Of a stretch of 43,024 nucleotides of DNA, positions 24,057-43,024 are shown in pieces (within the stretch, counting starts at the first letter, position 1; every line of letters starts with the position of its first letter). Source of the DNA: Treponemataceae bacterium (GTDB lineage: Bacteria > Spirochaetota > Spirochaetia > Treponematales > Treponemataceae); contig JAILBN010000087.1 of the NCBI GenBank assembly GCA_024680915.1, forward strand, positions 1 to 43,024. Reading direction: 5' to 3'. The notes below the pieces were generated by a model. That model was not told where the DNA came from and made no database searches. It saw nothing but the letters and a program-made list of their open reading frames with translations. The position numbers were made by a program, and so were the translations under genes.

Positions 24057-24209
24057 GAACTGACGCGGCTCCAGAACTGATGTAGCCCCAGAACTGACGT
24101 GAGCCTGGAACTGATGTAGCCCCGGAACTGATGTAGCCCCGGAACTGACGCGGCCCAGGAACTGACGCGGCTCCAGAACTGATGTAGCCCCGGAACTGAT
24201 ACGCCTCAG
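24057..24209 (-). repeat. 17-bp tandem repeat, nine copies, between purF and purA
   Basis: Units GAACTGAYGYRGCYCCR begin at 24057, 24074, 24091, 24108, 24125, 24142, 24159, 24176 and 24193, exactly 17 bp apart. Seventeen is not a multiple of three, so a coding role is unlikely. The array begins just after the purF stop in the transcribed direction. Confidence 0.9.
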
Positions 24210-37474: not shown

Positions 37475-37520
37475 GCTTCAGCCCGCTTCAGAGCAGAAAG
37501 AGTATGAGCAGGCGGAGGCA

Positions 37521-38040
37521 AGGTCAGGGGCAGCCTCAAAACTGCCGCACCGGCACGGTCAGGGGCAACCTCAAAACTGCCGCCACCGGCAAGGACAGAG
37601 GCAGCCTCAAAAACTGCCGCTACCGGCAAGGTCAGGGGCAGCCTCAAAACTGCCGCTACCGGCAAGGTCAGGGGCAGCCTCAAAAACTGCCGCACCGGCA
37701 AGGGCAGTGGCAACCGCAAAACTGCCGCCACCGGCAAGGTCAGGGGCCGCCTCAAAAACTGCCACCACCGGCAAGGACAGGGGCAGCCTCAAAAACTGCC
37801 GCTACCGGCACGGTCAGGGGCAGCCTCAAAACTGCCGCACCGGCACGGTCAGGGGCAGCCTCAAAAACTGCCGCACCGGCACGGGCAGGGGCAGCCTCAA
37901 AACTGCCGCCACCGGCACGGACAGGGGCAGCCTCAAAAACTGCCGCCACCGGCAAGGACAAAGGCAGCTTCAAAAACTGCCGCACCGGCAAGGGCAAAGG
38001 CAGCCTCAAAAACTGCCGCTACCGGCACGGTCAGGGGCCT
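37521..38040 (+). repeat. Tandem array of 35-37 bp units in the dapF leader
   Basis: Fourteen full units and a partial fifteenth lie between the attenuator and the dapF ribosome site. Each contains GGCAG, CCTCAAAA(A) and CTGCC, a small hairpin, followed by a GC(Y)ACCGGC segment. Units vary by A4/A5 and by GCACC or GCYACC, so reading frames are not preserved. There are no unique spacers, so it is not a CRISPR array. It would be transcribed as a leader RNA of about 600 bases. Confidence 0.92.
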
Positions 38041-38059
38041 TTTTCATAAGGAGGAAAGC

Positions 38060-38944
38060 ATGAGATTCACGAAAATGCATGGCTGTGGGAATGATTATAT
38101 CTATTTCGATTGTACAGATGAGGATTTTCCCGGCGGTGGGGTGGGCGAGCGTCTTGCGGCCATTAAGCTTTCGGACAGGCATTTCGGAGTGGGTGGAGAC
38201 GGCATCATTCTCATAAAGAAAGGGCAGAAGGCAGATTTCGAGATGGTCATGTACAACGCAGACGGTAGCAGGAGCCAGATGTGCGGTAACGGAATCCGTT
38301 GTGTGGGAAAATATGTGTATGACGCAGGCTATACAAAGGGGCGTGAGTTTACCGTTGAGTCTATGGGAGCTGTGAAGGTCCTGAAAGTTGAGGATGGCAA
38401 GCGCGGCGACAAGGTTTCAAATCTTTCTGTTGATATGGGATGCCCTATTCTTGAGGCGGCAAAAATTCCTGTGGCCACAGACAGGGGAGATGTGTTCGCC
38501 GCAGAAAGCCCAGTGATTATGAAGCCCTTGCTGGTCTCAGGCACTGAATATAAAATCACCTGCCTTTCCATGGGAAACCCACATGCGGTGGTCTTTTTGG
38601 ACAAGTCGCCGTCACAATTCCCTGTGTGCGAAATCGGTCCTCTTTTCGAAATGCATGAGTTTTTCCCGGAGCGTACCAACACTGAATTCGCCTTTGTGGA
38701 GGACCGACACACCATCTGGATGCGGGTATGGGAGAGGGGCACCGGGGAGACCCTGGCCTGCGGAACCGGAACCTGTGCCACTGTGGTGGCCGCAATCCTC
38801 AACGGCTTTGTGGATGCGGGACAGAAGGTTAGGGTGCATCTTCTTGGTGGGGATCTGGAGATTGAATGGAGCGGAAAGCCTCAGAATTCTGTTTTTATGA
38901 CTGGACCTGCGGAAACAGTCTTTACCGGAGATGTTGAGCTATAA
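38060..38944 (+). CDS. dapF: Diaminopimelate epimerase
   Basis: The enzyme interconverts LL- and meso-diaminopimelate on the lysine and peptidoglycan route. The 294 residues are slightly longer than usual (about 275). The two catalytic cysteines are Cys75 in MCGNGIRC and Cys234 in ACGTGTCA. FTKMHGCGNDY starts the protein, and GNPHAVVFLD is the second substrate loop. AAGGAGG lies about seven bases before ATG. The promoter and attenuator are more than 600 bases upstream, with a tandem repeat array between. dapL follows after about 100 bases, giving the two steps from tetrahydrodipicolinate to meso-diaminopimelate. A direct repeat AGGCCTGGGCC occurs twice in that gap. Confidence 0.97.
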   Translation: MRFTKMHGCGNDYIYFDCTDEDFPGGGVGERLAAIKLSDRHFGVGGDGIILIKKGQKADFEMVMYNADGSRSQMCGNGIRCVGKYVYDAGYTKGREFTVESMGAVKVLKVEDGKRGDKVSNLSVDMGCPILEAAKIPVATDRGDVFAAESPVIMKPLLVSGTEYKITCLSMGNPHAVVFLDKSPSQFPVCEIGPLFEMHEFFPERTNTEFAFVEDRHTIWMRVWERGTGETLACGTGTCATVVAAILNGFVDAGQKVRVHLLGGDLEIEWSGKPQNSVFMTGPAETVFTGDVEL

Positions 38945-39045
38945 GCCCCTTTTTAAGGCCTGGGCCCGCTAGAACTTGAGGAGCTTCGCCTTTTTTTAGG
39001 CCTGGGCCTTTCCTTTATCGGTAATCACAGGAGGATACAATAACT

Positions 39046-40338
39046 ATGACTATTAACAAGAACTTTTTGGATTTGGAAGCGAGCTATCTTTTTTCCACAG
39101 TGAATAAGAAAACCCGTGAGTTTATGGCTTCTCATCCTGATGTGGATGTGATAAAGCTTTCCATAGGGGATGTGACCCGACCTCTTTGCCCTGCGGTTAT
39201 TGAGGCAATGCACAGGGCTGTGGACGAGATGGCTGACGAAAAGACCTTCCGGGGCTATCCGCCGGAACAGGGCTACGATTTTATTCTTGATGCTATCCTC
39301 CAGTACGACTACCTTAAGCGGGGCATCAGCCTGAAAAAAGATGAGATTTTCCTTTCGGATGGCGCCAAAAGCGATTGCGGAAATATCGGGGACATTTTCG
39401 CCGTGGACAACACTGTGGCAATATGTGATCCCGTTTATCCTGTTTATATAGACACAAACATCATGAACGGACGGGGCAAGAAAATCATCCTGATGCCCTG
39501 TTCGGAGGAGAAGGGTTTTTTGCCTGATTTGCCGGAGCTTCCCACGGAGGATGTCTCGTCTTGTTCATGTGGCGCGGAGAAGCTTACCTGCGCAGAAGGT
39601 GCCACAAAGGGAAGAGCTCCTAATTCTGCATCAGATACCGCTCCCGTCCCGGATATCATCTACCTCTGCTTTCCCAATAACCCCACCGGAGCTGTCGCCT
39701 CAAAGGCCTACCTGAAAAAATGGGTGGATTATGCCAACGCCCACCACAGCTTGATTCTTTTCGATTCCGCCTACGAGGCCTTCATCACCCAGCCGGATAT
39801 CCCCCGCTCAATTTATGAGATTGAGGGTGCCAAAAGCTGTGCCATAGAACTGAGGTCCTTCTCAAAAACAGCCGGCTTCACAGGCCTGCGCTGCGGATAT
39901 ACTGTGGTGCCCCATGAGCTTGTCTTTGAGGGGGTGGAGCTTAACTCCCTCTGGTTGCGGCGACAGTCCACAAAGTTCAATGGCGTTTCCTACATAACCC
40001 AGCGTGCGGCCGAAGCTGTATATTCAGAAGAGGGACAAAAGCAGATTCAGGAAAATCTTTCCTATTACCGCGAGAATGCCCGGCTCATATACGAAGGCGT
40101 GAGGGAAGCCGGCTTCAAGGCCTTCGGCGGTAAAAACTCTCCTTATGTGTGGATGAAAATTCCTGCCGGCTTTACAAGCTGGAGCTTCTTCGACCAGCTT
40201 TTAGAGAAATGCCAGGTTGTGGGAACCCCAGGCAGCGGATTCGGCAAGATGGGGGAGGGCTACCTCAGGCTCACAGGCTTCGGCAGCCGGGAAAGGACTT
40301 TGGAGGCCATAGAAAGAATAAAGAAGTACTTCGGTTAG
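39046..40338 (+). CDS. dapL: LL-diaminopimelate aminotransferase
   Basis: This PLP enzyme makes LL-diaminopimelate from tetrahydrodipicolinate using glutamate as amino donor, bypassing DapD/C/E. The 430 residues are close to the family (about 410). Marks present are the N-terminal [49 protein letters not shown], and PLP Lys274 in [16 protein letters not shown] Cys/Ala/Ser-rich insert of about 20 residues (about 168-195, [20 protein letters not shown]) lies before [19 protein letters not shown] precedes ATG. It is probably co-transcribed with dapF. The downstream region shows no terminator before the hairpin array. Confidence 0.96.
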
Positions 40339-40428
40339 GTGTCAAAAAGAGAATCTGTTACTGAAAGCTGTCGCTCCCCCAGGCATTTCTTAATAAGCTT
40401 TTTACTTTAGTCAGTAAATTCCATCGTA

Positions 40429-41078
40429 TTTCCCGACTAAACTTGAGTTTTGTGACTTCTAGTCGGGAAAATTTCCGCCTCCTTCTGAAGCTTTCCCGAC
40501 TGAACGCTTGTTATCCTGCATTTAGTCGGGAATTTCTACCTTACTTCTGTGAATTTCATCTCTCCTTTTTTGATGTTTCCCGACTGAGTGAGAGTTTTTC
40601 GGCTTTCAGTCGGGAAATTTTCCGCCTCCTTCTGAAGCTTTCCCGACTGAACGCTTGTTATCCTGCATTTAGTCGGGAAACCCTGCTTTGGTACCAGAAC
40701 TTTCCCGACTAAACGCGAGTTTTGTGACTTCTAGTCGGGAAATTTTCCGCCTCCTTCTGAAGCTTTCCCGACTAAACGCGAGTTTTTTGACTTCTAGTCG
40801 GGAAATTTTCCGCCTCCTTCTGAAGCTTTCCCGACTGAATTTGGGTTTTGTGATTTTTAGTCGGGAATTCCTAGCTTGCTTCTGGGAATTTCATCTGTCC
40901 CTTTTTGATGTTTCCCGACTGAAAGCACTATTATTTTCAATTAGTCGGGAAAACTTGCTTTAATACCATGACTTTTCCCGACTAAACGCGAGTTTTTTGA
41001 CTTCTAGTCGGGAATTCCTACTTCTAAAAAGAGCTATTTCCCGACTGAACGCTTGTTATCCTGCATTTAGTCGGGAAT
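40429..41078 (+). repeat. Hairpin array A: ten 42-bp palindromic units
   Basis: Each unit is TTTCCCGACT, about 22 loop bases, then AGTCGGGAA(A). Starts: 40429, 40492, 40576, 40639, 40701, 40764, 40827, 40911, 40974, 41037. Intervals are 63, 84, 63, 62, 63, 63, 84, 63 and 63. Loops fall into a few types, including GAACGCTTGTTATCC and AAACGCGAGTTTTTTGAC. The spacers between units also recur, for example CCGCCTCCTTCTGAAGC. The array lies downstream (3') of the nuclease-like gene, which is on the minus strand. Confidence 0.95.
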
Positions 41079-41117
41079 TTCTTGTTCCTCTCTTTCATCT
41101 TTCTCTGTTTAAAGTTG

Positions 41118-41999
41118 TCAGAAGTATTCCTTTATTGTTTTCTCTATACTTTGAGTGCTAAGTGGTTGATTTTTGGTTTCCATTGTAGTTATAAGTCTAT
41201 GTCCTGGAAAAATGCCATTTTCAGTATAGATATTGAGTTTACGGATTGCATTTTGTGAATATTCTTTGAAATCCATAAGACCGAAATGTTCCCATATAAT
41301 TTCTTGACGTGAATGTGTATTTAGACAAAGAAAATCAGGATAGAATATCAAAGACTCTTTTTTTGATTCGGAATTTCTGGAATATTTCTCTAGAATAGCA
41401 GGATATTCATATCTGTATGGAATTTTGTGTCGGTGAAGAGCATCTGCTATCAAAACTTCGGATTTGGATCTGACACGTTCTCCTCTTGCTGTATAGAAAA
41501 ACTGCAAGTCTGTTGATACTTGAATCCCTTGCCATGTTACTTTCTGCCATTTCTCTGCATATTCTTCATCTGTGAGAGTCACTGGAATTATGAATTCTTT
41601 TCGGGCAGGATTCAAATCATTGTAAAACTTAATGATTTTACTTTGGAAGCGATAGTGTGTTTTCTCTGGAGAAGGTGTTTCTCCACATATTTTTGAGATG
41701 TATTTTTTTGTGGCCAGTATCTCATCTTCCAAAAGCTTTATTAGTTTTCTGTTGTAGTCCTTTTGGGCAAGCTGTCTAATTAGTTTTTCATTTTTCAGGG
41801 AGATATAATTTCCCAGAGGTGCATTTTCTTCTTCGACTTGATAATACTCTATGTATTTTCCCTTTTTTGATATTCTTAGATGTTCACTTTGCTTATGGTC
41901 ATTTCTTGTCTTTAGTGTTTTTAAGGTTACTTCCAGCTTTTTCAACCTCGTGACAATAAGTTCTAATGTATTGTCTGGTGGTAATAAATCTAAAATCAT
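41118..41999 (-). CDS. PD-(D/E)XK nuclease-like protein within a hairpin array
   Basis: The 293-residue soluble protein has two parts. Residues 1-110 are largely helical and charged, with a probable coiled coil near 15-35 (VTRLKKLEVTLKTLK). The C-terminal part (about 165-270) fits the PD-(D/E)XK nuclease fold: Glu181 in RSKSE, Pro221-Asp222 in YPDFLCL, and Glu237 with His238 in IIWEHFG, set on alternating strands and helices. Cleavage of DNA or RNA is an inference from this motif order; I cannot name a subfamily. AGGAGG precedes ATG. The gene is flanked on both sides by the same palindromic units, which come within 26 bases of its start and about 40 of its stop. Base composition is AT-richer than neighbouring metabolic genes, which suggests transfer. 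Confidence 0.82.
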   Translation of the reverse strand: MILDLLPPDNTLELIVTRLKKLEVTLKTLKTRNDHKQSEHLRISKKGKYIEYYQVEEENAPLGNYISLKNEKLIRQLAQKDYNRKLIKLLEDEILATKKYISKICGETPSPEKTHYRFQSKIIKFYNDLNPARKEFIIPVTLTDEEYAEKWQKVTWQGIQVSTDLQFFYTARGERVRSKSEVLIADALHRHKIPYRYEYPAILEKYSRNSESKKESLIFYPDFLCLNTHSRQEIIWEHFGLMDFKEYSQNAIRKLNIYTENGIFPGHRLITTMETKNQPLSTQSIEKTIKEYF

Positions 42000-42024
42000 A
42001 AAAATCCTCCTGATGATTTCCTAT

Positions 42025-42275
42025 TTTCCCGACTAAACTTGGGTTTTGTGATTTTTAGTCGGGAATTTCTACCTTACTTCTGTGAATTTCATCTCTCCTT
42101 TTTTGATGTTTCCCGACTGAGTGAGAGTTTTTCGGCTTTCAGTCGGGAAAACTTCCGCCTCCTTCTGAAGCTTTCCCGACTGAACGCTTGTTATCCTGCA
42201 TTTAGTCGGGAAACCCTGCTTTAATACCATGACTTTTCCCGACTAAACGCGAGTTTTTTGACTTCTAGTCGGGAA
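42025..42275 (+). repeat. Hairpin array B: four 42-bp palindromic units
   Basis: The same units as array A start at 42025, 42109, 42172 and 42235 (intervals 84, 63, 63). They lie upstream of the nuclease-like gene start. Loop and spacer types match those of array A, in the order seen there. Confidence 0.95.
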
Positions 42276-42419
42276 GTGACTCCTTTATCCTAGCACCCCA
42301 CTACAGACGCAATACGCTAACCAAAAAAATCTTGTTCGATTTATTGTTCATATCTATTGTTGACAATGAATTGATTTTTTTGACGCTTTTCACAGGAAAA
42401 TTCTTTTTCTGAAAAATAG

Positions 42420-42448
42420 TTGACATATTTTTTCAGAAATTGTATAAA
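42420..42448 (+). promoter_or_regulatory. glnN promoter
   Basis: TTGACA (42420-42425), 17-bp spacer, TATAAA (42443-42448). RNA start near 42455, about six bases before the hairpin stem. Confidence 0.8.
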
Positions 42449-42460
42449 CGAATTATCAAA

Positions 42461-42502
42461 CGACAATGAGGTCGCGGAAATGATGTTTCTGCGACCTTTT
42501 TT
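42461..42502 (+). promoter_or_regulatory. First ANTAR-type attenuator of glnN
   Basis: CGAC-[AATGAG]-GTCG (42461-42474), loop A1 and G4. GGTCGCGGAAA (42470-42480) alternatively pairs with TTTCTGCGACC (42486-42496), followed by a T run to 42502. Confidence 0.82.
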
Positions 42503-42594
42503 GTTTTCTGACGACTTGTATTATAATCCCGCGAGTTATATGCAGTTTGCTGCATGGAACTCGCCAAACAAAAGTGCGAAAGCATTTTTGAGTA

Positions 42595-42659
42595 TGGCAA
42601 TGGCGCCGCATTTTTTTCCGGGGGACGCCCCGCGAAAAATATTGTGGCGCCTTTTTTTT
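42595..42659 (+). promoter_or_regulatory. Second ANTAR-type attenuator of glnN
   Basis: TGGC-[AATGGC]-GCCG (42595-42608), loop A1 and G4, resembling the purF hairpin. GGCGCCGCA (42602-42610) alternatively pairs with TGTGGCGCC (42643-42651), followed by eight T. Confidence 0.72.
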
Positions 42660-42672
42660 CGGGTTAGGGATT

Positions 42673-42774
42673 GTAGGGGCGAGCGAAGCGAGAACACGCG
42701 TAAGCGTGGTCGAAGGCGAATGCCGTAGCCCCGTAAAGCCCGACGGCGGTGTGAAACGACGCCGGAACCCCAAA
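42673..42774 (+). repeat. Multi-hairpin palindromic repeat before glnN
   Basis: An outer stem GGGGC/GCCCC encloses CACGC-GTAA-GCGTG and GGC-GAAT-GCC, followed by a hairpin made of CGGCG and CGCCG arms. It looks like the dispersed palindromes elsewhere in the window and would lie in the glnN leader RNA, just before the ribosome site. Confidence 0.7.
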
Positions 42775-42795
42775 ACTTATTGATGGAGGTTTATT

Positions 42796-43024
42796 ATGGA
42801 CGATGTAACAGCAATTTTTGGAGAGAATGTCTTTAACGAGGCGGTTATGAAAGCAAGGCTGCCCAAAGAGACTTTCAAGCAGTTGATGAAGACAATCGAG
42901 GGAGGCGAGAAGCTTGACCCCTCTGTGGCCACCGTTGTGGCAAACGCCATGAAGGACTGGGCCCTTGAGAAGGGAGCCACTCATTTCACCCACTGGTTCC
43001 AGCCTCTTACGGGCATCACGGCAG
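42796..43024 (+). CDS. glnN: Glutamine synthetase type III, N-terminal part (runs off the window)
   Basis: The first 76 codons of a type III glutamine synthetase, which joins ammonia to glutamate with ATP. The visible part begins [18 protein letters not shown] and ends in [22 protein letters not shown], the characteristic GSIII N-terminal block. The full family is about 700 residues, so most of the gene lies beyond the window. GGAGG lies six bases before ATG. Two attenuators in series and a multi-hairpin repeat make a leader of about 340 bases. This is probably the main ammonia-assimilating synthetase, since the glnA-like protein at 15500 has an altered active site. Confidence 0.93.

Follow-up and report, generated by a model that had tools for sequence, protein, structure and literature searches.

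A putative stand-alone nuclease encoded beside helically phased palindrome arrays in Treponemataceae

Iteron and operator arrays consist of phased binding sites that adjoin the gene of a self-regulating DNA-binding protein. RAYTs are HUH tyrosine transposases that act on single-stranded, GTAG-tagged hairpins, and the REP tag is defined as a GTAG or CGTC palindrome end (PMC3733652). The genome of P. fluorescens SBW25 alone contains three enzyme-palindrome pairs (PMC3116915). I-Bth0305I, a homing endonuclease of the EDxHD / PD-(D/E)XK type, is reported to have several domains and to bind as a dimer to a target almost 60 bp long (PMC3943268). PDC-S68, a PADLOC defence candidate for which we found no description in the open-access literature, models a helicase-nuclease of more than 1200 aa.

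We analysed a stretch of 43,024 nucleotides from a Treponemataceae contig (JAILBN010000087.1, assembly GCA_024680915.1), referred to here as the window, in which a 293-aa protein is encoded between two palindrome arrays. The system resembles REP/RAYT in having a palindrome family of its own beside each enzyme gene, several such pairs per genome and copies scattered through intergenic DNA. It differs in its PD-(D/E)XK-type enzyme, freely differing arms, 14-22 nt centres and helically phased arrays, and in that mostly the arms, rather than whole units, are conserved between arrays. I-Bth0305I gave the best fold match to the nuclease domain, but here there is no intron/intein and no phage context, the targets in the host genome are many, and arrays stand at the gene's own promoter. 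The window gene is free-standing and chromosomal, with three partial phage matches and one partial viral contig, and a plasmid search gave no match. PDC-S68 has the same nuclease domain, but the window protein is stand-alone with a proposed DNA-reading N-terminal half, and its length (293 against ~1200 aa) and match to only profile positions 1100-1218 of 1221 exclude membership. Iteron and operator arrays likewise place phased sites beside the gene of a protein that here is presumed to bind them, but in our case the nuclease site is conserved, the arrays are scattered on the chromosome, and the sites are interrupted palindromes of 34-50 bp. Our search of the open-access literature, with subscription papers outside its scope, brought up neither this family nor arrays of this kind; a first-pass annotation of this DNA had likewise known of no described system with this layout. 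The gene and its arrays occupy the following positions in the window.

40429 to 41078, no strand assigned: downstream array of 10 palindromes of 42 bp, starting at 40429, 40492, 40576, 40639, 40701, 40764, 40827, 40911, 40974 and 41037
40521 to 40706, no strand assigned: duplicated segment linking both arrays, 96% identical to 42054-42239
41118 to 41999, minus strand: two-domain nuclease gene, 293 aa, with a proposed DNA-reading N-terminal half and a PD-(D/E)XK-type C-terminal domain (from the ORF list, relatives and AF2 model)
41121 to 41504, minus strand: C-terminal nuclease domain, residues 166-293 (from invariant residues, fold matches and PADLOC PDC-S68)
41595 to 41999, minus strand: N-terminal half, residues 1-135, the proposed arm-reading part (from AF2, arm-protein covariation and the L056/L060 chimera)
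42007 to 42012, minus strand: Shine-Dalgarno-like AGGAGG directly before the start codon, read from the sequence
42025 to 42276, no strand assigned: promoter-side array of 4 palindromes (42025-42066, 42109-42150, 42172-42213, 42235-42276)
42054 to 42239, no strand assigned: partner copy of segment 40521-40706

All 14 window palindromes have a left arm TTTCCCGACT, a 22-nt centre and a right arm AGTCGGGAA(A), with start-to-start distances of 62-63 or 84 bp. The first-pass annotation had described 14 units (10 plus 4) with perfect 10-base arms; the count held, whereas pairing was perfect over 9 bp in 14/14 and reached the tenth base pair in only 8 of the 14. Its observation that both sides share loop and spacer types was borne out by the 186-nt segment common to both arrays. 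Across the whole genome (3.15 Mb), the palindrome pattern matched 24 times forward and 26 times in reverse, compared to 0 matches for the same pattern read backwards, so the window palindromes are not a product of chance. The 4-unit array lies on the upstream side of the gene, and because only 25 bp separate the start codon from the end of the nearest palindrome, it falls in the promoter or leader region. A promoter scan found no consensus promoter near the gene that stood out above shuffles. The GC content of the gene is 33.6% compared to 49.4% for the window, and it is flanked on one side by genes for DapF and a DapL-like aminotransferase and, across the array, by one for a type III glutamine synthetase.

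Elsewhere in the window, positions 28-37158 appeared by eye to hold a glutamine/nitrogen metabolism cluster (two carB-like ORFs and carA-, asnB-, pyrG-, glnA-, pur- and gltB/gltD-like ORFs); the type III glutamine synthetase, which starts at 42796, is the only cluster member checked by Pfam. Two further repeats were seen: a GC-rich unit of 36 bp (GGCAAGGTCAGGGGCAGCCTCAAAAACTGCCGC...) that recurs about 14 times at 37517-38038, between a gltB-like gene and dapF, and contains a small GGCAG/CTGCC inverted repeat in every copy, and a 17-bp tandem repeat (GAACTGACGTGGCCCCA) at 24057-24199 adjoining a purF-like ORF. Type II restriction-modification was considered and rejected, as no methyltransferase was recognised by eye among the window ORFs and the neighbours are metabolic. 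CRISPR-Cas was also rejected: what is conserved here is the inverted arms, the same centres and spacers turn up repeatedly in an array, and no neighbour is cas-like.

The AF2 model of the 293-aa protein had a pLDDT of 93.2 and agreed, together with its fold matches, with the first-pass assignment of a PD-(D/E)XK-like gene, showing a fold of this type with E/D/E residues. K179, E181, D222, E237, H238 and K254 were invariant in 74/74 family sequences, which in our reading is as expected of a working PD-(D/E)XK-type site, with a putative assignment of the motif. The nearest fold to the nuclease domain was I-Bth0305I (3r3p_A; Z 8.4, rmsd 2.5, 88 residues aligned), followed by TnsA (Z 8.0, rmsd 3.5, 117) and Bax1 (Z 7.6, rmsd 2.9, 98), although by the tool's own note a Z near 8 may reflect merely a common arrangement. 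The C-terminal domain of PDC-S68 matched the window protein with an E-value of 3e-24 and was matched by 74/74 members. We found no credible match for the protein family in Pfam, NCBIfam or PHROGs, no match in a PDB sequence search with the protein, and nothing at E below 0.001 with Foldseek, whether the query was the N-terminal half or the whole model. The enzyme had been expected to differ in type from RAYTs, and an HUH/Y1 tyrosine transposase was rejected on the basis of the fold, the E/D/E residues and the lack of any Pfam transposase match in the 74 members. In the AlphaFold model of the N-terminal half, a helix (residues 11-33) is followed by a three-stranded sheet (39-66) and then by a long helix (68-105). 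VIA returned only generic coiled coils for this half (Z up to 7.2) and no clear structural relative, so its fold is assigned to nothing, yet is not thereby new.

The same nuclease domain was also seen in other contexts. In L177 (336-3635, genome G112), a PDC-S68-type nuclease domain is fused C-terminally to an AAA/UvrD-type helicase, and other large helicase-nuclease ORFs with this domain occur in genomes without the two-domain family.

Our preferred explanation, to which we assign a probability of roughly 0.6, is that a stand-alone nuclease reads its own phased palindrome arrays, probably regulates itself through them, and may spread them in a REP/RAYT-like manner. The nuclease family is large, has no name, and is often encountered in spirochaetes of the gut and rumen. 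Among 84,980 genomes scanned, 384 relatives were found, and the best 80, which were retained, comprised 64 from Treponema and other Spirochaetes, 9 from Fibrobacter, 6 from Clostridia and 1 from another bacterium. The source genome encodes three paralogues (L002-L004) with ~40% identity to the window protein, each with an upstream array whose arms differ (GACTACGGGTC, TACGGACGAAA and GTACGGCTAAAA). Downstream of L003 (1057-1454, genome G000, contig C50), on the opposite side from its palindromes, we observed an array of a 37-40-bp direct repeat (GCTTTTCAGTTTGTGCGCGCTGGCCGATAACATAACT) with spacing off 10.6-bp steps.

The pairing of gene and array was computed directly over 94 of 100 loci, leaving out L053 (duplicate), L086, L100 and L116 (N-terminus incomplete or uncertain), and L080 and L110 (less than 150 bp upstream), and counting both of the identical L036 and L111. 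With mismatches allowed, at least three palindromes were present upstream in 72/94, downstream in 5/91, and in 2/219 distant windows. With exact 7-base arms, at least two same-arm palindromes lay within 700 bp upstream in 67/94 and downstream in 4/91, compared to 4/364 distant windows of the same loci and 0/470 dinucleotide shuffles. The five downstream matches belonged to L045, L058 and L132, which lack an upstream array, and to the window gene and L081. Both distant matches under the permissive setting were phased arrays with a TACATAT-type arm, from genomes that encode a homologue with that arm type on another contig (L116, L133). Fewer than three units were found upstream in 22/94 loci, 3 of which have a downstream array, and the Lachnospiraceae-type members L104, L122 and L131 had no convincing array. 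Homologues without palindromes are therefore a minority, and the proposal that gene and palindromes form one system was upheld. Close homologues mostly keep the same neighbours, so frequent movement of the gene is not suggested.

The helical repeat of B-form DNA is about 10.6 bp. Neighbouring palindromes were spaced at 53, 63, 74, 84, 95, 105, 116, 126, 137, 148 and 158 bp, and onward. Among the 66 loci with at least three units, to which the test was limited, the best period was 10.6 bp with an R of 0.849 (250 spacings), while the highest value in 2000 jittered sets was 0.215. The signal persisted when one spacing per locus was used (R 0.826, n=66), in a permissive palindrome set (R 0.884 at 10.65 bp, n=232), and in 13 arrays of the source genome that lie apart from any family gene (R 0.841, 51 spacings). 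Because the spacing follows the helical turn, the sites appear to be read on double-stranded DNA from one face. Phasing thus points to one-faced binding to the duplex and not to RNA or single-strand hairpins.

The first-pass annotation had suggested that the hairpins may be RNA substrates, and the wider form of that idea is that the enzyme cleaves RNA or single-stranded DNA hairpins, as in REP/RAYT or CRISPR-type processing. The arms are inverted repeats, and the layout resembles that of RAYT genes adjoining REPIN clusters (PMC3116915). The helical spacing of 10.5-10.6 bp, which extends over 5 to ~20 turns, would have no reason in RNA, and it argues for double-stranded DNA instead. The 14-22 nt centres also vary freely, the protein fold is not HUH/Y1, and Rfam gave no match over window positions 38000-43024. 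We consider this explanation very improbable. As in REP/RAYT, an enzyme gene adjoins its own repeats and the repeats are scattered in the genome; the REP/RAYT tag was nevertheless rejected, since the window arms lack GTAG or CGTC and arms differ between family members. Differences in enzyme, arm tags and DNA logic place the system outside the REP/RAYT family.

Aligned on their dyads, the arms showed a variable stretch of 7-10 bp, often with an inner AA(A). Sorted on the initial seven bases of their called arms, the protein-arm pairs fell into 49 classes, an overcount because called arms begin at different bases. Arm similarity followed protein similarity over 61 loci (Mantel r 0.545, 0/2000 permutations as high), in agreement with the expectation that arm sequence changes with the protein; incomplete proteins and L039, L043, L047, L048, L068, L070, L085 and L121, which had uncertain unit calls, were left out. 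The correlation was 0.562 for the N-terminal half and 0.438 for the C-terminal half (0/2000). A block-by-block analysis that corrected for the rest of the protein localised the signal to residues 31-70 and 91-130. The partial r reached 0.20 for residues 41-60, none of 200 permutations exceeded 0.116, and the value in the nuclease domain was about 0. Placed on the AlphaFold model, the residues that covary most strongly correspond to the three-stranded sheet. Arm sequence therefore tracks the protein through its N-terminal half and not through the nuclease domain.

Between L056 and L060, residues 1-75 were 28-47% identical and later blocks 68-92% identical, except for the last (47%), and their arms differ; judged from these alignments, the two look like a natural domain swap. 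L059/L060 and L056/L060 are mosaic proteins in which the two ends of the chain are related to different sequences, N-terminal and C-terminal parts each having relatives of their own; this pattern suggests that members of the gene family recombine. Collectively, the data strongly imply that the protein binds its own arms specifically, and arm sequence might be predictable from, and re-assigned by, the N-terminal half. The arms of paralogues within a genome were no more distinct than those of between-genome pairs at equal protein distance, so active arm avoidance gets no support.

Selection on the arms was measured in 13 related-locus pairs, with arm positions taken from one species and scored in its partner, a design in which alignment error inflates both rates. 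Substitutions were found in 76/883 arm columns (8.6%) compared to 1030/3970 columns between arms (25.9%). Substitution is thus three times slower in the arms, which are maintained while the intervening DNA drifts. This test is fairer than arm identities from the comparison of separate arrays, which are inflated because the arms themselves served to locate the units.

The 13 gene-free arrays of the source genome represent all four arms (A 8, B 2, C 1, D 2). They lie in gaps between longer ORFs, with doubtful ORFs of 131-173 aa overlapping three of them, and one arm-A array lies between pstA-like and pstB-like genes of a phosphate-transport operon. The gaps are tandem, convergent and divergent, with no common neighbour. 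Homology between separate arrays was computed directly. The D array C28 was 88% identical to the gene-linked D array over 446 bp and may be its continuation or a close copy. The arm-A arrays C25 and C27 aligned over 251 bp at 75% identity, and their similarity stopped at the outermost palindromes; C16 and C27 have 32 identical bases in common, including a whole centre. Because separate arm-A arrays are homologous up to their palindrome edges, copying of palindrome-bounded arrays followed by divergence is supported, and array copying within the genome is indicated by these alignments. In separate arrays, centres were mostly 29-66% and spacers mostly 28-43% alike, so any copying was old or the copied part short. 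No empty site was obtained among the sister genomes, whose flanks carry other genes or are too diverged: in G003 and G006, other sequence lies downstream of dapL in place of the element, and the DNA corresponding to the pst-operon array is too diverged for comparison.

These arrays could also be selected operators or chromosome-folding sites of a protein that acts mainly in DNA architecture or regulation, with a minor or different role for the nuclease fold. Such a role would fit arms that are kept while the surrounding DNA diverges, gene-free arrays that stay phased, and their placement between longer ORFs, including the pst genes. It would not account for putative catalytic residues that are invariant in 74/74 sequences, for array gaps of every orientation with no common neighbour, or for new-arm paralogues that are numerous and sporadic, and we consider it unlikely.

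Gene-free arrays were found only where the gene family is present. Of 145 family genomes, the protein profile matched 29, and in six of these every match fell within ORFs of 690-1242 aa. The TACGGATAA palindrome occurred in 4/145 genomes and the CCGACTTAAC palindrome in 2/145, all among the 29 profile-positive genomes (hypergeometric p 1.3e-3 and p 0.04, respectively). In G085 and G128, TACGGATAA copies lie on contigs without any family match, and in G098 one TACGGATAA group is ~300 kb from the nearest family match on its contig. The window arm was absent from six sister genomes (0/6), four of which have no family member. Identical palindromes in genomes lacking the gene had been named as a check on the original idea, and for the two arms the count was 0/116. 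The palindromes might instead be ordinary intergenic repeats or terminators with the gene as a bystander, in a genome rich in other intergenic repeats such as the 37-bp array beside L003. Association, covariation and co-occurrence refute this reading unless hidden selection of loci explains them, and we give it almost no weight.

Under our preferred explanation, a stand-alone, sequence-specific nuclease would read its own interrupted palindromes as double-stranded DNA, with the N-terminal half (the coiled-coil arm and three-stranded sheet) contacting the palindrome arm. We infer binding, dimerisation and cleavage by the nuclease: each arm of a palindrome would probably be occupied by one of two protomers, whose nuclease domains would lie close to the variable centre. 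Whole helical turns between palindromes would align bound proteins on one face and allow cooperative binding. At the gene's own promoter, the array would provide self-regulation, which we regard as likely, and gene-free arrays at other chromosomal locations would be bound by the same protein. By acting on arrays or close to them, the nuclease probably causes them to duplicate and to be copied into further intergenic positions. Nuclease-promoted recombination or copying, of the kind proposed for RAYTs and REPs, is the likeliest route of spread, since the arrays look copied and the putative active site does not vary, although cleavage as the driver of copying is put forward tentatively. Gene and arrays would then resemble a REP/RAYT-type family in their behaviour, with an enzyme unrelated to RAYTs. 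Counting against this explanation, a nuclease that cuts its own chromosomal arrays would need restraint, of which no sign was seen here.

Restraint is central to another possibility, a defence nuclease whose arrays act as operator, decoy or self-mark to hold a toxic enzyme in check until foreign DNA or release activates it. The match of the nuclease domain to the C-terminal domain of a PADLOC candidate in 74/74 members, its fusion to a helicase in L177, and the sporadic, multi-copy, low-GC genes fit accessory defence genes. PDC-S68 is, however, merely a candidate whose helicase part is absent from the window protein, no known defence genes adjoin the window gene, whose neighbours are dapL-like and type III glutamine synthetase genes, and gene-free arrays at many loci are not predicted. 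We regard a defence role as rather improbable.

We rate the gene and its phased palindrome arrays, returning to our preferred explanation, as a categorically new kind of system of putative function. It is possible, though we would not bet on it, that the system is mobile or self-maintaining, with a nuclease whose interchangeable DNA-reading half builds, maintains and spreads phased palindrome arrays, many protein-arm pairs coexisting per cell. If this explanation is true, it would represent a second, unrelated bacterial solution to the REP/RAYT problem, acting on double-stranded DNA, and the many natural protein-arm pairs would serve as a data set from which to work out the DNA-recognition code of a protein domain not yet described. 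It would also readily explain why spirochaete and Fibrobacter genomes from rumen and gut contain phased arrays of palindromes, and offer a direct route to asking why a nuclease keeps intact targets in its own chromosome.
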